Shown: piece after piece, positions 1,898 through 16,010 of the stretch | How positions within the stretch are numbered: the first letter of the stretch is position 1 | Layout: each line of letters starts with the position of its first letter | Assembly (NCBI RefSeq): GCF_000243255.1 | Contig: NZ_CM001436.1 | Coordinates: 1,090,077 to 1,154,076 of the forward strand | From: Methanoplanus limicola DSM 2279 | Lineage (GTDB): Archaea > Halobacteriota > Methanomicrobia > Methanomicrobiales > Methanomicrobiaceae | Length of the DNA stretch: 64,000 nt | Direction of reading: 5' to 3' | Notes under the pieces: generated by a model | What the model was told of the DNA's origin: nothing | What the model saw: the letters and a program-made list of their open reading frames with translations, nothing else | Database searches by the model: none | Translations under genes and position numbers: made by a program

Positions 1898-2767
1898 TCA
1901 AAGGTAAGGATCTTTCAGAATAACTTCCCCTGTCACTGCATCAATGAGAACTATCCCACCCACAGAGATGTAATTCTTTGGTTTTCCTTTAATATCGACC
2001 CGCCAGAGAAGTTTCTGCTCTGTTCCGGCCGGACAGTCGACAATAAGCCGTGCATCCGATTCAGTCACAACAATTCCGTCAAACTGATCTTTTGCAATCT
2101 CAAGAGCCTCATCTTCACTGATCTCCGGAACAAGTGAAACCTCAGTCTCCCCGCTTATTGCCATATAAGTAATAATCTCTCCCGTTGAAGGATTTAGTGA
2201 GATTAATGCCGAATTTGGGAGGTAAACTCTGTCTTTTATTTCATTAAACGTTATCGAGTATTCTTTGTAAGCCCCGTGATCAAGGAGCTTTGATTCGGTA
2301 ATTTCAAGTTTTTCTGCATTTGATGCAGATGTCTTTTCTGCGATATAGTCACGGGCAATATCCTCTGCGTCCTCAGGTTCTATCCTGACATCAAGAGTCT
2401 CACTCCAGTTAACCGGAAAATGTGCAAGGGTAATCTCCAGAGTTTCCGAATTAACATAATACCTCTCTCCACCATCCGTTGAGAATTTATAATAGTCTCC
2501 ATAATAAGATTCACCAGTGCCTTCATATTTTAAAATCACAGATGAATTAGCCAGAAAATTAATAACAGCGGTTTTTGCAGCATCTTCTCCGGCAATGCCC
2601 GCCAGACTGGCCAAAACACCGGATTCTTCAGAATTACCAGCAGAATATTCTGTTCCACGATCATCTGCGGTCACAATTTCACCTGAATATCCTGATGGGA
2701 CAAAAATCAGAATTAACAGAACCACTGCAAGTGCCAGAAGAACTGTAACTTCACTTTTTATTTCCAT
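1898..2767 (-). CDS. exported PepSY-type protein
   Basis: A 289-residue protein with an N-terminal membrane or signal segment (about residues 8-25) followed by tandem PepSY-like units. The repeated pattern is a helix of the form EDAEDIARDYI or EDEALEIAKDQF followed by strands with xWRVDIKG and a closing VLIDAVTGEVI motif. PepSY domains act outside the membrane as peptidase propeptides or inhibitors. It is a paralogue of the product of 8537-9316, with the same domain order and motifs (EISE..A.EIA..QFD, TEQKLLW). It lies 13 bases after the stop of the upstream exported protein gene, so the two are probably one operon. Its natural partner peptidase is not evident here. Confidence 0.75.
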   Translation of the reverse strand: MEIKSEVTVLLALAVVLLILIFVPSGYSGEIVTADDRGTEYSAGNSEESGVLASLAGIAGEDAAKTAVINFLANSSVILKYEGTGESYYGDYYKFSTDGGERYYVNSETLEITLAHFPVNWSETLDVRIEPEDAEDIARDYIAEKTSASNAEKLEITESKLLDHGAYKEYSITFNEIKDRVYLPNSALISLNPSTGEIITYMAISGETEVSLVPEISEDEALEIAKDQFDGIVVTESDARLIVDCPAGTEQKLLWRVDIKGKPKNYISVGGIVLIDAVTGEVILKDPYL

Positions 2768-2780
2768 AACATTACCTCAT

Positions 2781-3449
2781 TTAAATTGCCGGGAGCGGCG
2801 GCATATAATTGTGATCAATGTCTTTTGATGAATAGATAATATATAGCGGACTCTTACTTTTCACAGCAGATTCGGTTGCCTGAACTGGTTTTATGTATAT
2901 GCCATAATTATCACCAGACTCAGACTGAAAATTGATATTGAGGATGAAAAAACTGAGGCCATTTTCATCTTTTTTACTGAGATCCGTGCCTTCGGCAAGA
3001 AGTGCCACTGCACTCTCAGAGTCATTGATATAATAGATTATGGCAGAATATGTATCCGCACTCATATTTTTTTTGTTAATGCTGCTGTCAATAAAGTTAT
3101 AATTTAAATCATACTCTGTATCATATATTCTTGTGATTAGTGAAGTGGAATTATCCTGATTAAGCCCAAAATCCCTGAACTCTGCAAGATCATAGGTTTT
3201 TACATCCGGAGGTACGCGAATTTCCCCATATTTTTCCGTGATATAATCCGGAAGAGGGTCATCTGCACTGAGTCTTGCTTCAACTGCATCAGTGTAACCG
3301 ACTACCTCACAGACAAGTTCCTGATTTTTTGGATTATCTGTCCCAAAACCACCTATTCCTTGCCCAAAAAAGAAGGCAGCTGTCATTCCAACTATGGCAA
3401 GAATTACTGCTGTAAAACACAACACCACCATCAATAATTTCTTTGACAT
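2781..3449 (-). CDS. membrane-anchored exported protein, unknown function
   Basis: A protein of about 222 residues with one N-terminal hydrophobic segment (about residues 4-28, MSKKLLMVVLCF...) and an extracytoplasmic remainder rich in Ser, Asn, Asp and Tyr. I recognise no family or catalytic motif. The ATG at 3449 is preferred over the one at 3467 because it puts Lys-Lys directly before the hydrophobic stretch. The gene is followed after 13 bases by the PepSY-type gene, so the two are likely co-transcribed. Confidence 0.65.
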   Translation of the reverse strand: MSKKLLMVVLCFTAVILAIVGMTAAFFFGQGIGGFGTDNPKNQELVCEVVGYTDAVEARLSADDPLPDYITEKYGEIRVPPDVKTYDLAEFRDFGLNQDNSTSLITRIYDTEYDLNYNFIDSSINKKNMSADTYSAIIYYINDSESAVALLAEGTDLSKKDENGLSFFILNINFQSESGDNYGIYIKPVQATESAVKSKSPLYIIYSSKDIDHNYMPPLPAI

Positions 3450-3724
3450 CATTAATAATACTCCCATATAATAATTGTTTGATTAGATCCTTTGACATAT
3501 ATCCATATTTATCACTAAAAGCTTGCCGGTATCTCAACTTCCTTCAATCAAACACGGATATTTCTTACCATTTTAAATTTTGGACCTGTATAATTCATCC
3601 TCATTCAGTCCGGGAAATTTATCGCCGGGATATGTCATATCCAAAAAGCCATCAAATATCTCAAAAACTCACATCCCGGGCTTTCCATAACCGATATTTC
3701 AGTCTATTACCACGCAAAAAATAA

Positions 3725-6559: not shown

Positions 6560-6659
6560 TCCTAAAGAGGTCTGGATAAGTGACACCTGCATCATCATCG
6601 ATCTCTTCAATGCAGGAATACTAAACCATCTCTTTAGTCTTGGTTACTCCATTAAAACC
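6552..6659 (+). pseudogene. PIN-domain protein, N-terminal fragment
   Basis: ATG at 6552 overlaps the XRE-ImmA stop and begins MDNPKEVWISDTCIIIDLF, the first strand of a PIN domain with its catalytic Asp, then continues to LFSLGYSIKTT. There the sequence meets, at about 6659, a segment duplicated at 12396-13442 and the PIN reading is lost. The truncation point therefore coincides with the edge of a duplicated block. It was probably the toxin partner of the upstream regulator. Confidence 0.6.
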
Positions 6660-7196
6660 ACCCTCTTTAGTTAACAGTTCGAGATTTGAGGCAAATTTAT
6701 CTCCAAGATTAAATCCCTTTTCCTGATAATATATACGAAGCTGTTCAAAACTGAGATCCTGTCGTGGGGACCTTATATTACCGATGGAATTGCGAACCCG
6801 TTTTGCAAACAATTCTTTGATCATACGTGCCGGCATTGGATCACTTGCACTGCCAATCCGGATGAAGCATCCCTTTTCTGTCATCCCATATTTCCGGAGA
6901 TAATATGGCTTCTCAGAACCACCAGCCAATACAATCCTGACGAGATCTTTTCCATTCCGCAATTCATGAATAACATCAAATAACCCAAGGCATGACGGCC
7001 GGATATTGTTTCTTAACCTATCCTTAACCTTTAGCTGGATCTCATCAGCGTCACTCAGACCGAACACATTTCCCGCCTTATCAATCCCCAGATAAATAAC
7101 ACCACCTTCAGATGTATTTAAAAAGGCCACAACCTCCTTTTCAAGAGATTCCGTTAACTCCTGTTTATACTCAATGCGGTTGGATTCTGTCATCAT
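6659..7196 (-). pseudogene. AlbA_2 ATP-binding gene, 5' part only
   Basis: The N-terminal 179 codons match, nearly base for base, the larger gene at 11587-13075. The visible domain is AlbA_2 (Schlafen-type, 'divergent AAA_4'): NRIEYKQELTESLEKEVVAF, then GGVIYLGIDKAGNVFGLSD. After LELLTKEG the two copies part company at about 6659; the C-terminal HATPase_c_4-like and winged-helix parts are missing and the frame runs a few codons into PIN-gene sequence. This copy lacks the small insertion that interrupts the other copy, so the start ATG (7196 or 7193) and N-terminus here show the original form. Confidence 0.8.
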
Positions 7197-8360: not shown

Positions 8361-8527
8361 GGCTCCTCGCTAAATCCTGTGGGTAGTTATCAAAGGTTCC
8401 AACAAATCACTTGTTTTTTTGCAGGATTCTAATAGATTATTTTAGCTAAATGCAGTATCCATAGATTTTGTGGTCGAATTGGTTATTCGACCGATCAAAT
8501 TTTACCCACACCAAACAGCGAGGAGCC
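8361..8527. mobile_element. ISL3-like MITE (167 bp) with 8-bp target duplication
   Basis: The ends are inverted repeats: GGCTCCTCGCTAAATCCTGT on the left, then GGGTA; and on the opposite strand GGCTCCTCGCTGTTTGGTGT, then GGGTA. These resemble ISL3-family termini (GGCTC...TGTGGGTA). Both sides are flanked by the direct repeat AAATTTAG (8353-8360 and 8528-8535), exactly eight bases, the length expected for ISL3. There is no ORF, so it is a non-autonomous miniature element. It inserted one base beyond the stop codon of the PepSY-type gene and could supply or disturb the end of that transcript. Confidence 0.85.
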
Positions 8528-8536
8528 AAATTTAGT

Positions 8537-9316
8537 TTATTTGAATGAACTTTTCAAGTAAACTTCACCTGAAAGAGCATCAATAATCACAGATCCCCCA
8601 CGAAGTATATAATTATCAGGCTCTCCTTCAATAACTACAAGCCACAATAATTTCTGCTCAGTTCCATCTGGATAATCAACAATAATTTTTGCATCCTTTT
8701 TCACAATCCTGATGTTGTCAAATTGATTTGTTGCGATTTCTATTGCCTTTTCTTCGCTTATTTCAGGCGCAAGAGAGATTTCTAAATTTTTATCAACAGA
8801 CACATAGGAAATTATATCACCAGAATACGGATTTACAGACACAATTGCGGAATTAAAGAGTAAAACACCATCTTTTACATCTCTGAATACAAATTTATAC
8901 TCCTTATAACTTCCATGGTTCAATAATGAAGAGTCTATAAGATCAGATTTATCAATACCCGATAATGAGGACTTTTCTTTTATGAAATTATAAGCATTTT
9001 GTTCTGCGTCTTCTAAACTAATCTTAACAGTATTTGTCTCTGACCATTCAAAAGGAAATTCTGCACGGCTGACTGTATAGGTACCAGCATCTACATAATA
9101 ATTCCCGCCACATTCAGTGGAAAATTGATAATATTCTCCATAGTGATTTTTTCCAGTTCCTACATATTTAACAGCCTGATCCTTTTCCCCAAAAAATGCA
9201 TGAAGCGAATTTTCTGCAATTTCATCTTCAGAATAATTGAAGGAATTATTTGCCATTACAGCTGCTGCAGAAATTATAACTGCAACTATCAATGTCAATA
9301 TAAGAATTCTTTTCAT
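8537..9316 (-). CDS. exported PepSY-type protein
   Basis: A 259-residue protein with an N-terminal signal segment (about residues 4-21) and PepSY-like repeats, including EDAEQNAYNFIKEKSSLSG and EEKAIEIATNQFDNI, closing with IDALSGEVYLK. It is a clear paralogue of the product of 1898-2767. Its ATG lies 10 bases after the stop of the exported caspase-fold gene, so the two are translated together. PepSY domains commonly restrain peptidases, so this may be the inhibitor or chaperone of the upstream protein. That pairing is inferred from the operon only. Confidence 0.75.
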   Translation of the reverse strand: MKRILILTLIVAVIISAAAVMANNSFNYSEDEIAENSLHAFFGEKDQAVKYVGTGKNHYGEYYQFSTECGGNYYVDAGTYTVSRAEFPFEWSETNTVKISLEDAEQNAYNFIKEKSSLSGIDKSDLIDSSLLNHGSYKEYKFVFRDVKDGVLLFNSAIVSVNPYSGDIISYVSVDKNLEISLAPEISEEKAIEIATNQFDNIRIVKKDAKIIVDYPDGTEQKLLWLVVIEGEPDNYILRGGSVIIDALSGEVYLKSSFK

Positions 9317-9326
9317 AAATTATACC

Positions 9327-10061
9327 TCAAATTGTTCCATACCTTACAGGAGTTAAATACGCAGTACTCGGACTATTTCCTTGAACAACAATAGTATCTA
9401 CTCCATCAGTCCATCCCCATGGAAAAATATCATCTATAGCATCATTAACCGCAGTTGATGCAGAATACCCAATAGAATACCCATCTTCAAGATATTCCCA
9501 GAATTTATTCCCCCAGTAATTTGACCTGCCATTGCCAATAGCACCTGAAAATCCTATTCTGTAGTCAACTCCTTTACTTGAGGCCGTGGAAAGTAAATTA
9601 CCGGTTTCAGAATTATAATTTGCTGAATAACAAGCCTCAAGCACCATTAATAAAACATCATTAATTTCAAAAGCTGAATCTGAAAGTACTTTATGATTAG
9701 TACTCATTAAATCATCAGGAACATCACTGGCAAACAGATAAGATGAACTGCCATTTGAATCCTGAAATACTAAAATACCACCACCGTCACCCTGATATGT
9801 ACCTCCATGACCATTGAAAAAATAAATCGAAGAATCACTTAACCACTGGGTACCACTTATAACTGATTGATCAGTGTAAGAATAACCATTATAACCAATT
9901 TGATCCTGATAATTTTCAGCATTCGAAGCGGTAGGTGTCGATGGTATATCACTGAAATCATAATTCATTGCATAAGGTGGACTGTGCTGTGTAGCAGATA
10001 CAACTCCGGTTATGCTGAAAGCAATAACCAAAATCATAATAACTCTATAATATATTTTCAC
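9327..10061 (-). CDS. exported caspase-fold (clan CD) cysteine peptidase-like protein
   Basis: A signal peptide (about residues 1-23, ending VVSA) leads to a 220-residue domain. Two motifs match the catalytic dyad of clan CD peptidases: His85 in YFFNGHGG at the end of a strand, and Cys144 in VLEACYSAN after another hydrophobic strand. The order His before Cys and the spacing of about 60 residues fit caspase/gingipain/C13-type folds. The C-terminal third has GRSNYWGNKFWEYL and YSASTAVNDAI. The GTG at 10061 is preferred because an ideal GGAGGT lies five bases upstream; the longer start at 10094 would disrupt the signal peptide. It is the second gene of a three-gene operon with a membrane protein and a PepSY-type protein. 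Activity is unproven. Confidence 0.7.
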   Translation of the reverse strand: MKIYYRVIMILVIAFSITGVVSATQHSPPYAMNYDFSDIPSTPTASNAENYQDQIGYNGYSYTDQSVISGTQWLSDSSIYFFNGHGGTYQGDGGGILVFQDSNGSSSYLFASDVPDDLMSTNHKVLSDSAFEINDVLLMVLEACYSANYNSETGNLLSTASSKGVDYRIGFSGAIGNGRSNYWGNKFWEYLEDGYSIGYSASTAVNDAIDDIFPWGWTDGVDTIVVQGNSPSTAYLTPVRYGTI

Positions 10062-10156
10062 ATTATACCTCCTGTCACGTACAAAAATGCACAAACAGAT
10101 TATAATTATAAAATAGATTAGAATATGTTTTTCCTTCGGTTTTTACCGAAACAAAG

Positions 10157-10951
10157 TCAAAAAAAAGATTTAATTTTAAATCTTAGATTGGTTGCATAAG
10201 AGTAGTGAGAATCCTTTTTAGTAATCTCAATCACAACATTTTCCTGATACTGAATATCTTCATCAAAATATTTACAAATATTAAGATTTTTAGCTTCACT
10301 GGGAGATAACAGAGTGACTTCAACCCTTATTTCCCTAAATTCATGAGAAGGAATCAAAACTTCCGGAGCATAATCAGAAATTAACTTCCGTTCAGAATCA
10401 CATTGCCCATTTACCTGTTCAAGACTGTATTTTACAGAAACATTTGAAATTTCAATATCCTCATTTCCTCTGTTGACTATAAGGATATCAAACGAAAGTT
10501 TATTCCCATCCAGTTTGACATCCGGCGAATAGATGACAGACAGATTATCTATGTTAAGATCAGGAGTATAATAAATACTCATATTTTCTTCAGTAGCATC
10601 AAGATAATAATCAAATGAATACTCATCCCCAAAAACCTCCTCTATCGAAAAAGAACCATCAGAGGAATAGTACATTACGGGAATAATGGTATGATATACT
10701 GAAGGAATCCTATTCACGGGAACATCTGCAAACTCTCCATCATCTATCGCAAGCATATGAACGGGGCTAAAAATTGAATAGTTTTGATCAGGCATCACAG
10801 GAAGTTCATTGCACCTGTATAAATAAGGCAAAGAAGATGTACCTGATGAATTTTCCAAGATAAATACAAGAATAACAGCTGAATTTATAGCCACAATAAT
10901 TAAAACAATTATTGCACAAATACATACCTTCCCCCTCCCATCAAAAAACAT
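10157..10951 (-). CDS. membrane-anchored exported protein, first gene of the caspase-like operon
   Basis: A 264-residue protein with one N-terminal membrane segment (about residues 8-31) and a large outer part. Residues about 140-215 (LSFDILIVNRGNEDIEISNVSVKY ... EFREIRVEVTLLSP) look like an Ig-like or CARDB-type beta domain. I do not recognise the rest. It is followed after 95 bases by the caspase-fold gene on the same strand. The shared export and order suggest a surface complex, but no direct evidence is visible. Confidence 0.65.
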   Translation of the reverse strand: MFFDGRGKVCICAIIVLIIVAINSAVILVFILENSSGTSSLPYLYRCNELPVMPDQNYSIFSPVHMLAIDDGEFADVPVNRIPSVYHTIIPVMYYSSDGSFSIEEVFGDEYSFDYYLDATEENMSIYYTPDLNIDNLSVIYSPDVKLDGNKLSFDILIVNRGNEDIEISNVSVKYSLEQVNGQCDSERKLISDYAPEVLIPSHEFREIRVEVTLLSPSEAKNLNICKYFDEDIQYQENVVIEITKKDSHYSYATNLRFKIKSFF

Positions 10952-11024: not shown

Positions 11025-11504
11025 TTATTTGGCCTGGGATTTGGCCCTGATTTTCTTAAGACGGACGATTTCGTCCCATTCCATCTCATCAAGCCTCATT
11101 TTAATGAAGTCACGTGCTTCGGAAAGTTCCGGGATTACCTTGAACTCCAGAGCATTGACACGGCGTTTTGTCGACTCAATTTCATCGAGCAGACGCTTCA
11201 TAGTGGTCTCAATCTCAGCAGCCTCAATGATAGCATCGACCAAATCCTCAAAGGAGGCCGCAGTATCATCAATAACCGCTGATGTGCCTAAAACGCCATA
11301 GCCACGCTCAGTAACGCTCTTTTTCACAGCCGAGGACTCAATCTCAGGAACAACAACACCCATGATGTTCTTCTCCTTAAGAGTAATCTGGGGTTTCTCC
11401 TTGACAGCCATTGCAGCCGCCTTAACCTTAATTGAACCCTCAACTGTATTCGCCATTGCAATCATACCGGTTGCACGCTCAAAGCCCTCGGCAGGAGCAC
11501 CACG
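11025..11504 (-). pseudogene. atpD 3'-end fragment B (about 160 codons, frame intact)
   Basis: The fragment corresponds to about the last three quarters of subunit D, from RGA(P)AEG(F)ERATGMIAMANT to the stop. Compared with the intact gene it carries many silent changes and a few mostly conservative substitutions (R/K, Q/E, S/A, T/S), yet no frameshift or stop. The short sequence after its stop (run of T, then AGGAAAAAAACGAAAC read on the plus strand) also matches that after the intact gene. The pattern looks like a diverged functional allele that was later cut, not a long-decaying duplicate. It lacks the N-terminal coiled-coil start and cannot make a complete subunit. Confidence 0.85.
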
Positions 11505-11586: not shown

Positions 11587-13075
11587 TTAATACTCACCCA
11601 AAACTTCCCAGTGTCCACCTTTGTCAGGACCAATGCGTTTTAGTTTGCCAGCCTCTTTTAGCTTATCTATCTGTTTTGCAACTGCCCTTCTGCTAATTTT
11701 AAGACATTCTGCCATTTCTGTTGTGGTAATACTATTATTATCTTTGACAAGCTGCAAAATTTTCTGTGAACTTTTCTGTGAACTTTTCTGTGAACTTTTC
11801 TGAGCGGTGTTTTCCATTATTTTGGTTACAGTTCCAGTCTGTTGAAGTTCCAGCGCACCAGAATCCATAGGAAAGACGGTACGGACAAAGTTTGCAGTAA
11901 AAAGAAAAGATTCCCTTGGATAGGCCTTAAGAATACGAGGCATACCTGAACCAAGATATTCTACAATACCCAAATACTTAAAGATCCGCATAAGTATTTT
12001 GTTACGTGGAATTGAGTAACCGGCAAAAAACTCCTCACGTGCAATACCAGGTGCAACAGTTCCGGCAGAAGTAATTTCGATACGATCCTGGAAAATTTCA
12101 AACTTCGGGACAGCCCCACTGGTATAGTCATTGTGAATAATGGCATTAATTACAGTCTCACGTAAAGCAACGGCATTCCACAGGCGTATATTGATTCGTT
12201 CTTTAGAAGTAATCTTCGTTACAGTACGGTTCTCAACCTCCAGTCGATCAAGAACCTGTTTACAGGATTTAATCAAAGAACAATAGCCATATTCATTGCT
12301 TTCAATCAGGTCAACCCTGTCCGGACCACGGTACCTGGCAACCTGAACCGAATTTCCGTTATCATCAGCAAGAAGATAAGCTGCATAATTATAATCACCC
12401 TCTTTAGTTAACAGTTCGAGATTTGAGGCAAATTTATCTCCAAGATTAAATCCCTTTTCCTGATAATATATACGAAGCTGTTCAAAACTGAGGTCCTGTC
12501 GTGGGGACCTTATATTACCGATGGAATTGCGAACCCGTTTTGCAAACAATTCTTCGATCATACGTGCCGGCATTGGATCACTTGCACTGCCAATCCGGAT
12601 GAAGCATCCCTTTTCTGTCATCCCATATTTCCGGAGATAATATGGCTTCTCAGAACCACCAGCCAATACAATCCTGACGAGATCTTTTCCATTCCGCAAT
12701 TCATGAATAACATCAAATAACCCAAGGCATGACGGCCGGATATTGTTTCTTAACCTGTCCTTAACCTTTAGCTGGATCTCATCAGCGTCACTCAGACCGA
12801 ACACATTTCCCGCCTTATCAATCCCCAGATAAATAACACCACCTTCAGAGGCTGTTGCGTGAATAAAAATTAATAGACAAATGAATAAATGATTAGCACA
12901 TTTGGGCAAAGTATTGGCAAACAATAAACAATTGTCGTGCGAAATTATCTTATTGTCTACAGAAAAGTAACCGTGCAACAGCCTCTTCAGATGTATTTAA
13001 AAAGGCCACAACCTCCTTTTCAAGAGATTCCGTTAACTCCTGTTTATACTCAATGCGGTTGGATTCTGTCATCAT
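11587..13075 (-). pseudogene. AlbA_2 / HATPase_c_4 / winged-helix protein gene, interrupted by a small insertion
   Basis: The full-length relative of the fragment at 6659-7196. Domains in order: AlbA_2 (about residues 8-130), a GHKL-type HATPase_c_4 region with LRETVINAIIHNDY and FEIFQDRIEITSAG, a Lys/Ser/Gln linker with three SSQK repeats, and a C-terminal winged helix (TTTEMAECLKISRRAVAKQI). Such proteins are RecG-related ATP-binding regulators, sometimes linked to defence. A 142-base insertion at 12850-12991 breaks the gene 27 codons from its start (MMTESNRIEYKQ at 13075/13072) and shifts the frame. A shorter ORF from 12978, starting inside the insertion, could still yield most of the protein. 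It stands between long and short atpD fragments. Confidence 0.75.
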
Positions 13076-13442
13076 CTTCTCCCTATAATTAATCAGGATA
13101 TTTTCGTAATCTCCCTCTGTAAAATCCCATCTAAACGAACAATAAAATGCTAATCACTCACAGTGATCAGAGTTATTCGTCTCAAAACTAAAATAAATTC
13201 CTCTGATTTCCATCAGGCAATATTATAATCAGGGCATGTACAAAAAATAATTCTGATAATCCGTGCGCAATATTGTTAATTAGGAAGAAAAAATAAAAGC
13301 AAAAACCCAAAAAAAATTATTTGGCCTGGGTTTTGGCCCGGATCTTTTTGAGACGGACGATTTCGTCCCTTTCCATCTCATCAAGCCTCATTTTAATGAA
13401 GTCACGTGCTTCGGAAAGTTCGGGGATTACCTTAAACTCCAG
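12396..13442. repeat. duplicated block, copy 2
   Basis: Counterpart of 6659-7563: 5' part of the AlbA_2 gene, its 240-base upstream region and the atpD end. It differs from copy 1 by the inserted small element and scattered substitutions. At its left edge the AlbA_2 gene simply continues, whereas copy 1 is cut; at its right edge the atpD match runs 12 bases longer than in copy 1. Confidence 0.85.
12848..12985. mobile_element. MITE-like insertion with 11-bp inverted repeats
   Basis: Comparison with copy 1 (7100-7110) shows a 142-base insertion here. Its ends are the perfect inverted repeat GAGGCTGTTGC / GCAACAGCCTC. Depending on where the end is drawn, the flanking direct repeat is TTCA (four bases, element 12848-12985) or CTTCAGA (seven bases, element 12850-12984). 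There is no transposase. It belongs to the wider group of elements with GGCTGTTGC ends, but the family cannot be fixed by eye. It inserted after the block duplication, as the other copy lacks it. Confidence 0.8.
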
Positions 13443-13454
13443 AGCATTGACACG
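13317..13454 (-). pseudogene. atpD 3'-end fragment C (46 codons)
   Basis: Contains the last 45 codons plus stop of subunit D, nearly identical to the intact gene and to fragment A. It ends abruptly at 13454 after GACACG, 26 bases from the 3' end of the winged-helix gene at 13481-13957. It shares its right-hand neighbour type (a winged-helix gene) and left-hand neighbour (AlbA_2 upstream region) with fragment A. Confidence 0.9.
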
Positions 13455-13480
13455 CATCTTAGAGAAATTAGATCATAGAT

Positions 13481-13957
13481 TTATATTTTTAGCAATACCC
13501 GGTTTTTCCACAAAATAATTATCTGTAATACTACTGCCCCAATTGCAATAATAAACAGTGGAAAATATGGATCATCAAATAGTGGAATACTTAAACTCAT
13601 TTGAAGACGGGGAATTGTGTAATAAGTATAAATTGCAGCAAACGCAATTGTAAAGTTCAGAATTGAAGAGATTATAATCGAAAATCTGGAATTATTATCA
13701 GAACCTGTAACAGCTTTTCCAAAAGGAGTAAGTTCATAATATATCCATTTGTGACCATCCTCTTTTGATATAATAAGACCGGCAGATTCCATCTTTTTAA
13801 GATGGTAATGCACAGTTGATTCCTGAAGGGAAAGATCCTTTGAAAGTTCTGAATTAGTTTTTTTCCGGACAGAAAGCAATTTAAGTACATTTATCCGGGT
13901 ATCTGAGGACAATGAATTAATAATGTTTTTATCTATAATATATTCAGAATCTTCCAT
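13481..13957 (-). CDS. winged-helix regulator with two membrane segments
   Basis: Paralogue of the product of 7595-8089. The N-terminal winged helix (SSDTRINVLKLLSVRKKTNSEL, then STVHYHLKKMESAGLI and EDGHKWIYYELT) is followed by two transmembrane helices (about 93-113 and 128-148) and a basic end. It is divergent from the exported serine protease gene at 14124 with a 166-base shared promoter region, so it probably controls that gene, sensing something at the membrane. A TATA-like TTTATTTAA lies about 20-30 bases upstream. It ends 26 bases from a short atpD fragment. Confidence 0.75.
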   Translation of the reverse strand: MEDSEYIIDKNIINSLSSDTRINVLKLLSVRKKTNSELSKDLSLQESTVHYHLKKMESAGLIISKEDGHKWIYYELTPFGKAVTGSDNNSRFSIIISSILNFTIAFAAIYTYYTIPRLQMSLSIPLFDDPYFPLFIIAIGAVVLQIIILWKNRVLLKI

Positions 13958-14123: not shown

Positions 14124-15188
14124 ATGAAAAAACGAACAATCATATTAAGTTTCGTCTTTGTGATACTATTGTTCTCAAACGTCTCTGGTGCTGCAATAGA
14201 TGATAATGTCTATAATGCACTTGCACCATGTTACTCTGAAAATCTTATAGCATCATACGGACTCATACCAGTATTTGACGAAAACAATCTGTTAAAATCA
14301 GCCGGAATTTCTGCTTCATTTTCAAATGATACTCTTCAGAAAGAATGGTATGATCAGATGCATAGTCTTTATGAAAATACAAAATATGAAATCGATAAAA
14401 AATACTCATATCCAAGAGGTCCGATCATATCTTATGGCACTGATGCCTTAGGATCTGTTATTGTCGGAATATATGACAAAGAAAAAACTAACAGTTCCTA
14501 CCGGGATCAAATATATTCAACCATTAAATCAGAAGCAGATAAATTAGGCATTAACAATATCCCGATCATTTTCTTTAATGCTGCAATGCCTGAACTGCAT
14601 GTATCACGAACCGACACATGGAGGCCAGTAATCGGAGGAATCCAAGGTTCATGCAATATAGGAGATTTTACATTAGGATTTGCCGCAACAAGAAACGGAC
14701 AAAATGGATTTGTAACAACAGGACATATTGGAGGTACCGGAACAACTGTTTATCAACCGAGTTCGCCTAATTCCGTAGGTTCTGTCACAGTTTCTTCAGG
14801 TGGTTCGACATCAGATTCATCATTTATCCAATATAGTAATGTTGCAGCTAAAATCTTTGAAAGTTCTTCAAGTCAACCATCCGTATATTCATACTCAGAT
14901 CCATGGCAAAATCTTTGGGTGATCAAATCAGGAATTAATACAGGAACCACAACAGGACAGGTTATTGCCGAGACATCCTTATGGAATAGTTATTTCCAGA
15001 CAACTCTTTACAACCAATGGTATGCAAGTTATTCCAGTAGTGGAGGAGATAGCGGAGGACCGGTATATTACAAAGATACTAACCACAGAGTTCATATTTC
15101 TGGCATACACTGGGGAAAAGGAAGCTATTCATGCTTTTCTCCAATATCAAATGTAATGAATGATCTTGATATTTCAGTAAAAACATAA
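14124..15188 (+). CDS. exported chymotrypsin-like serine protease (S1/alpha-lytic type)
   Basis: A 354-residue preproprotein: signal peptide (about 1-23, ending VSGA), a propeptide-like region to about 165, then a trypsin-fold catalytic domain. The triad is readable: His201 in FVTTGHIGG, Asp231 in STSDSSFIQ, and Ser310 in GGDSGGPVYY. The domain is small and Ser/Gly-rich like alpha-lytic or streptogrisin-type proteases of bacteria, so bacterial origin is possible. It acts outside the cell or at the surface. A GAGGT RBS eight bases upstream supports the ATG. It is divergent from a membrane winged-helix regulator and stands directly behind the ATP synthase operon, convergent with it. Confidence 0.85.
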   Translation: MKKRTIILSFVFVILLFSNVSGAAIDDNVYNALAPCYSENLIASYGLIPVFDENNLLKSAGISASFSNDTLQKEWYDQMHSLYENTKYEIDKKYSYPRGPIISYGTDALGSVIVGIYDKEKTNSSYRDQIYSTIKSEADKLGINNIPIIFFNAAMPELHVSRTDTWRPVIGGIQGSCNIGDFTLGFAATRNGQNGFVTTGHIGGTGTTVYQPSSPNSVGSVTVSSGGSTSDSSFIQYSNVAAKIFESSSSQPSVYSYSDPWQNLWVIKSGINTGTTTGQVIAETSLWNSYFQTTLYNQWYASYSSSGGDSGGPVYYKDTNHRVHISGIHWGKGSYSCFSPISNVMNDLDISVKT

Positions 15189-15377: not shown

Positions 15378-16010
15378 TTATTTGGCCTGGGTTTTGGCCC
15401 GGATCTTTTTGAGACGGACGATTTCGTCCCTTTCCATCTCATCAAGCCTCATTTTAATGAAGTCACGTGCTTCGGAAAGTTCCGGGATTACCTTGAACTC
15501 CAGAGCATTGACACGGCGCTTTGTCGACTCGATTTCATCGAGAAGACGCTTCATAGTGGTCTCAATCTCAGCAGCCTGAATGATAGCATCGACCAGATCC
15601 TCAAAGGAGGAGGCAGTATCATCAATAACCGCTGATGTTCCGAGAACACCATAACCACGCTGTGTAACACTCTTTTTAACAGCTGAAGACTCAATCTCAG
15701 GAACAACAACACCCATGATGTTCTTCTCCTTAAGAGTAATCTGGGGTTTTTCCTTGACAGCCATTGCAGCTGCCTTAACCCTGATTGAACCCTCAACTGT
15801 ATTTGCCATTGCAATCATACCGGTTGCACGCTCATAGCCCTCGGCAAGAGCACCCCGGCTTTCCTTTGCATCTTCTAAAACCTTGAAAAATTCAAGGATC
15901 AGTCCGTCGCGCTTCATCTTGAGGATGTTATAGCCACGCTCTGAGAGCTTAATCTTCTTCTTTAAAGCAATAAGCTCAGAGCGGGTCGGCTTTACATCTT
16001 TAAGCGCCAT
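15378..16010 (-). CDS. atpD: A-type ATP synthase subunit D
   Basis: Central rotor shaft subunit of the A1Ao ATP synthase. The 210 residues have the family's long N- and C-terminal helices (KLSERGYNILKMKRDGLILEF at the start, [21 protein letters not shown] near the end) around a central GVVVPEIESSAVKKSV region. It is the last gene of the operon, eight bases after atpB. Three partial copies of its 3' end lie at 7438-7563, 11025-11504 and 13317-13454, which makes this 3' end the pivot of the neighbouring accessory region. After the stop the plus strand shows A- and T-runs (AAAAAACGAAACAAAAAAAA) that may serve as terminator. Confidence 0.97.
   Translation of the reverse strand: MALKDVKPTRSELIALKKKIKLSERGYNILKMKRDGLILEFFKVLEDAKESRGALAEGYERATGMIAMANTVEGSIRVKAAAMAVKEKPQITLKEKNIMGVVVPEIESSAVKKSVTQRGYGVLGTSAVIDDTASSFEDLVDAIIQAAEIETTMKRLLDEIESTKRRVNALEFKVIPELSEARDFIKMRLDEMERDEIVRLKKIRAKTQAK

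Follow-up and report, generated by a model that had tools for sequence, protein, structure and literature searches.

A predicted exported clan CD-type peptidase of Methanoplanus limicola is encoded with a separate PepSY-fold partner, a membrane protein and a putative membrane-bound regulator

In a 64,000-nt stretch of the Methanoplanus limicola DSM 2279 genome (the window; contig NZ_CM001436.1, positions 1,090,077 to 1,154,076), a small protein with a signal peptide and a caspase-like pair of His and Cys residues is encoded next to a PepSY protein and a membrane protein, raising the question of what kind of enzyme it is and why these proteins are encoded together. The host genome is archaeal, with a size of 3.2 Mb on a single contig. 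Three labels were coined in this analysis, CASP for the peptidase family, TMB for the membrane-anchored beta-rich family and HTM for a membrane-bound winged-helix regulator. The genes are transcribed from the minus strand in the order TMB, CASP, PepSY and HTM (Table 1). The spacing is 95 bp between the TMB and CASP genes, 10 bp between the CASP stop and the start of the PepSY gene, and 441 bp between the PepSY and HTM genes, the last including an inverted-repeat element. The start codon of CASP is GTG, not ATG, and is preceded shortly upstream by a ribosome-site-like sequence. Signal peptides and membrane helices were called from hydropathy alone, which predicted a CASP signal peptide of approximately residues 1–26 ending at VVSA/TQ. 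A preliminary description had named the signal peptide, His85 in FNGHGG, Cys144 in LEACYSAN, the PepSY gene 10 bases downstream and a membrane-anchored beta protein in the same-strand cluster; all of these were found, the PepSY domain scoring over the Pfam cut-off and the membrane protein having an N-terminal helix plus a beta-rich region.

Table 1. Coordinates of the four cassette genes and the two dyad codons in the window
Feature	Position	Strand	Basis
CASP, predicted exported clan CD-type cysteine peptidase, 244 aa	9327..10061	-	GTG start; AGGAGGT a few bases 5'; CHAT/DUF6345/C25 homology
His85 codon, in FNGHGG	9807..9809	-	Sequence; kept in aligned copies; aligns with GHG of CHAT and DUF6345
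Cys144 codon, in LEACYSAN	9630..9632	-	Sequence; aligns with CHAT Cys
Predicted exported PepSY protein, 259 aa, three PepSY-like units	8537..9316	-	Pfam PF03413; AF2 model; YpeB match; adjacency census
TMB, membrane-anchored beta-rich protein, 264 aa, one uncleaved N-terminal helix	10157..10951	-	TMB family profile
HTM, ArsR-type winged helix and two C-terminal membrane helices, 166 aa	7595..8095	-	Pfam HTH_5, E=1.2e-13; recurs in related cassettes

Single-sequence searches with CASP against Pfam, NCBIfam and PDB gave no match. Searches for relatives revealed CASP in 26 genomes out of 393 Halobacteriota genomes sampled, and a broader profile matched in 37 of 386, outgroup proteins and weak matches included, both counts being samples from this one phylum. 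Relatives within the host's own family and order include species of Methanogenium and Methanoculleus. Comparison of the family profile with the whole PDB revealed a sole significant match, the CHAT protease 8tl0_A (E=7.3e-5), in which GHG was aligned over GHG and the AC motif over AC. By hhalign, the family was similar to DUF6345 (P=7.5e-11, GHG and Cys aligned) and to archaeal CHAT domains (P=5e-8, from a CHAT alignment containing two or three mis-trimmed rows), while two unrelated control alignments gave P values of 0.01 and 0.3. Archaeal CHAT proteins were scored by the CASP HMM down to E=1e-11, a value that, like the other local-set E-values, refers to a small database. The weak outgroup matches of the CASP profile were bona fide TPR-CHAT (genome G257) and C25 (genome G158) proteins, and one of them (locus L162) passes the C25 cut-off. 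The window CASP itself had 1) no match at E≤1 to the Pfam CHAT model (PF12770), which matched 2 of 18 relatives with a best E of 0.01, 2) no Pfam match to DUF6345 (PF19872), which matched 4 of the 18 with a best E of 0.0028, and 3) none at E≤1 to Peptidase_C25, C14 or C13, the last being matched by just 2 relatives (E≥0.037). The AlphaFold2 model of CASP, built from 12 sequences, had a pLDDT of 38.8, and the putative clan CD-type fold is assigned from homology. The clan CD-type dyad proposed in the preliminary description stands through profile homology, although CASP lies closer to CHAT, DUF6345 and C25 than to caspase or legumain.

CASP shares with CHAT proteins the order and surroundings of the two dyad residues (hydrophobic strand-GHG ... 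hydrophobic strand-AC) and a C-terminal G(x)n-A motif, but it is predicted to be exported, is small and single-domain, and scores below the Pfam CHAT model, whereas the CHAT proteins in this analysis were large, some with TPR repeats, and had neither PepSY nor HTM neighbours. Like C25 (gingipain type, PF01364), it would belong to clan CD and be exported, but it has no large catalytic or adhesin regions. As the closest homolog with a solved structure belongs to the CHAT proteases, a function in defence or cell death, as in CRISPR- or gasdermin-associated CHAT proteases, could be considered. It is barely credible, given the signal peptides on both CASP and PepSY, the lack of CASP relatives among the viral contigs searched and the steady, not island-like, operon context; in addition, PADLOC had no match for CASP, PepSY or TMB, and HTM matched its Csa3/CARF models via the generic wHTH only.

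The clan CD dyad pattern, a His (HG) followed by a Cys ([AGS]C), each behind a hydrophobic strand, was found in CASP. All 36 of the aligned copies have His85 and 34 have Cys144; the copies that deviate are fragments and three second paralogs with Phe. Together with the conserved gene adjacency, this puts the arrangement beyond a chance occurrence. The Phe-bearing proteins, possible pseudopeptidases, are each the second CASP of a CASP-PepSY-CASP cluster, located after the PepSY gene (L064 7066–9361, at C1:2858065–2860360 of the host's own genome; L066; L069). Since non-catalytic forms thus exist beside PepSY, CASP could also be a clan CD-fold peptide binder signalling via the membrane partner, which we judge highly improbable for the main paralog, as it keeps His and Cys across about 30% identity and the Cys was lost only in the second copies. 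It was also noticed that an Archaeoglobales homolog (L062 952–1670) is split over two frames with the PepSY gene behind it intact, representing a decayed gene or an assembly error. In the alignment, the CASP domain begins shortly after the signal peptide, and therefore no space is left for a separate N-terminal prodomain.

The PepSY protein scored 25.9 bits against PF03413 (cut-off 24). Its AF2 model (12 sequences; pLDDT 84.7) consists of three helix-plus-four-strand units at residues ~30–86, 101–174 and 188–258. The best structural match by far was the YpeB C-terminal region (5boi; Foldseek E=1.4e-10), with Z=17.1 over 208 residues and an rmsd of 4.5, followed by the uncharacterised 5coz and then by the fungalysin and vibriolysin propeptides (Z 9–11). 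With consecutive PepSY units in a modelled YpeB-like fold, the protein qualifies as YpeB-like; it is not the partner of a spore cortex lytic enzyme, the neighbouring gene encoding a clan CD-type protein. As in the SleB-YpeB pair of Bacillus spores, a predicted exported hydrolase and a separate multi-PepSY protein share one operon, but SleB is a peptidoglycan lytic enzyme and, to our knowledge, methanogens of the host's group form no spores. In the M4/M36 propeptides (vibriolysin, fungalysin), a unit of the same fold binds and restrains an exported peptidase; these units are located in cis at the N-terminus, whereas the PepSY of CASP is encoded by a separate gene or, in fusions, at the C-terminus.

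PepSY domains are also found in proteins with no relation to peptidases, and the constancy of the pairing was examined in 386 genomes. For 35 of the 36 CASP family members, PepSY is either a same-strand neighbour or fused to the peptidase; counted as profile matches, 34 of 40 had a PepSY-family match on the same strand within 500 bp, and in genome G313 PepSY adjoins CASP as the neighbouring gene. Four CASP-profile matches without PepSY were CHAT (G257), C25-type or divergent (G158) proteins, of which G158:1940469 was set aside on its weak score only. In the lone exception within the family (L067), a DDE transposase gene overlaps the end of the peptidase gene, in the place of PepSY. With three such PepSY genes among ~3,000 genes, the adjacency would be expected by chance at roughly 0.001 per locus. 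It is kept across families and classes, and PepSY is the most constant partner of CASP. In two genomes, both parts lie in a single ORF (L078 4681–7566 and L079 5390–9004) with the peptidase first and PepSY directly behind; the L079 fusion has an independent Pfam PepSY match, below the cut-off. The window contains a second PepSY gene (1898–2767, minus strand), whose product is 46% identical to that of the first, and upstream of it a gene for a single-helix membrane protein (2781–3467, minus strand) with no peptidase gene there; the two may be what remains of a cassette after loss of the peptidase. Because no peptidase adjoins it, a PepSY protein of this kind may be able to act without one.

These results suggest that the propeptide function of CASP is supplied by PepSY in trans, a view for which gene coupling, the fusions and the PepSY fold give good support. 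In our reading of the whole cassette, to which we give a probability of about 0.6, CASP is an exported, probably cell-surface, prodomain-less clan CD cysteine peptidase, PepSY folds it and keeps it inactive in trans, the membrane partner tethers the pair, and HTM tunes expression of the cassette. Lacking a prodomain of its own, exported CASP would obtain the propeptide function from the separately made protein; PepSY may both fold it and keep it inactive, as YpeB does toward SleB, and cleavage or removal of PepSY would set the peptidase free. It is also conceivable, though unlikely, that PepSY is a foldase without restraint and CASP a plain scavenging extracellular protease. Metalloprotease propeptides of the PepSY fold do assist folding, and the CASP-PepSY fusions are compatible with either role. 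However, YpeB, the closest fold match, inhibits its partner in vitro (PMC6660665), PepSY in the fusions forms the full C-terminal region instead of an N-terminal prodomain, and a membrane-bound regulator and a conserved membrane partner point beyond a free digestive enzyme. The case for restraint by PepSY is made by analogy, because YpeB inhibits SleB; YpeB is also required for SleB stability and is co-expressed with it from a common operon (PMC6660665; PMC13393411).

The TMB of the window was recognized by a profile of CASP-PepSY-adjoining TMB genes from other genomes (E=6.9e-9), while an HMM from the window protein alone found no relatives. Members of this family adjoin CASP-PepSY in Methanoculleus, Methanogenium, one Methanoregula assembly and G008, being downstream of PepSY in most loci and upstream in the window and G008. 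Since the position varies, the partnership has outlasted rearrangement. In other lineages, a polytopic membrane protein after PepSY takes the place of TMB. By either type of protein, the CASP-PepSY pair may be kept at the membrane or surface. A small exported enzyme with a membrane-anchored beta partner and conserved PepSY coupling would also suit a processing or ligating (transpeptidase-like) enzyme that matures S-layer or envelope proteins, with PepSY or the membrane protein perhaps as substrate. Legumain-type clan CD enzymes are able to ligate, which is in line with this idea, but the flanks of the CASP loci showed no specific S-layer gene link, and we consider it decidedly improbable.

The regulator gene HTM is located beyond PepSY/TMB, in the same position, in the Methanoculleus and Methanogenium loci. 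Of the three-part system suggested earlier, a dedicated PepSY (adjacency, two fusions) and a conserved membrane-anchored third protein were borne out, but this fourth conserved gene had been overlooked. Only two strong HTM members occur in the genome, both within the window. The second (13481–13957, minus strand) is divergent from a plus-strand gene (14124–15188) for an S1-like exported serine protease, and this gene pair is kept in several relatives. The protease is of alpha-lytic type (PDB E=0.003; motifs TTGH and GDSGG). An HTM gene was found beside 7 of the 12 loci examined for this S1-like family and beside 9 of the 24 for DUF6345, whereas 40 CHAT/C25 loci with similar flanks had none. 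Because it recurs beside three unrelated exported protease types, HTM is proposed to be a regulator. Its DNA-binding domain would face the cytoplasm, with almost no external domain. It would probably sense the membrane partner or the state of the membrane, and may match cassette expression to the envelope state.

DUF6345, listed by Pfam (PF19872) without assigned function, resembles CASP in being exported and about 250 aa long and in having a PepSY/FTP-like gene downstream and HTM near many members, but it is a separate family with a distant, longer partner (about 320 aa). Among 15 DUF6345 loci with longer flanks, 13 have directly downstream a gene for an exported or anchored protein of 250–330 aa. 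Ten of these downstream proteins, aligned against the PepSY partner, gave an hhalign P of 1.2e-6 (controls, P>0.01), and Pfam matches to FTP or YycI were obtained for several of the downstream proteins; L098 combines DUF6345 with an FTP-like match. Loci L163 and L164 copy the four-gene order exactly, as DUF6345, PepSY/FTP-like protein, small membrane-anchored protein and HTM. On sequence grounds, this suggests that DUF6345 may itself be a clan CD-type exported peptidase family. We tentatively suggest, as a rather doubtful generalization, that a modular cassette for signalling by surface proteases is common to Halobacteriota, consisting of an exported protease (CASP, DUF6345 or S1-like), a membrane protein and a dedicated HTM that would couple protease or envelope state directly to transcription, the clan CD types adding a PepSY-fold partner in trans.

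Prokaryotic metacaspases, a few euryarchaeal ones among them, have been described (PMC3501461). A YpeB-like archaeal family was predicted to act as an inhibitor of unidentified proteases (PMC6393860). A full-text search of open-licence literature found no paper on DUF6345 and none that connects PepSY with archaeal proteins of the caspase type. The present analysis names a concrete candidate protease partner for PepSY, in another archaeal group and with natural fusions as backing, adds a predicted exported branch to the CHAT/C25/DUF6345 group, and links CASP and DUF6345 to one membrane-bound regulator family. It thereby offers a testable example of a protease that may be controlled by a propeptide-like partner encoded as its own protein.

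The surroundings of the cassette are rearranged through segmental duplication. The V/A-type ATP synthase subunit D gene is complete at 15378–16010 and has near-identical partial copies at 11025–11465 and ~13321–13518, and an AlbA_2/RecG-like regulator gene occurs with a near-identical N-terminal part at 6621–7196 and 11587–12978, one copy being truncated. In addition, the small element between the PepSY and HTM genes (8361–8527) is MITE-like, with 25-nt inverted ends (GGCTCCTCGCT...) and AAATTTAG on each flank, and one diverged copy (70%) of it is present elsewhere in the genome.
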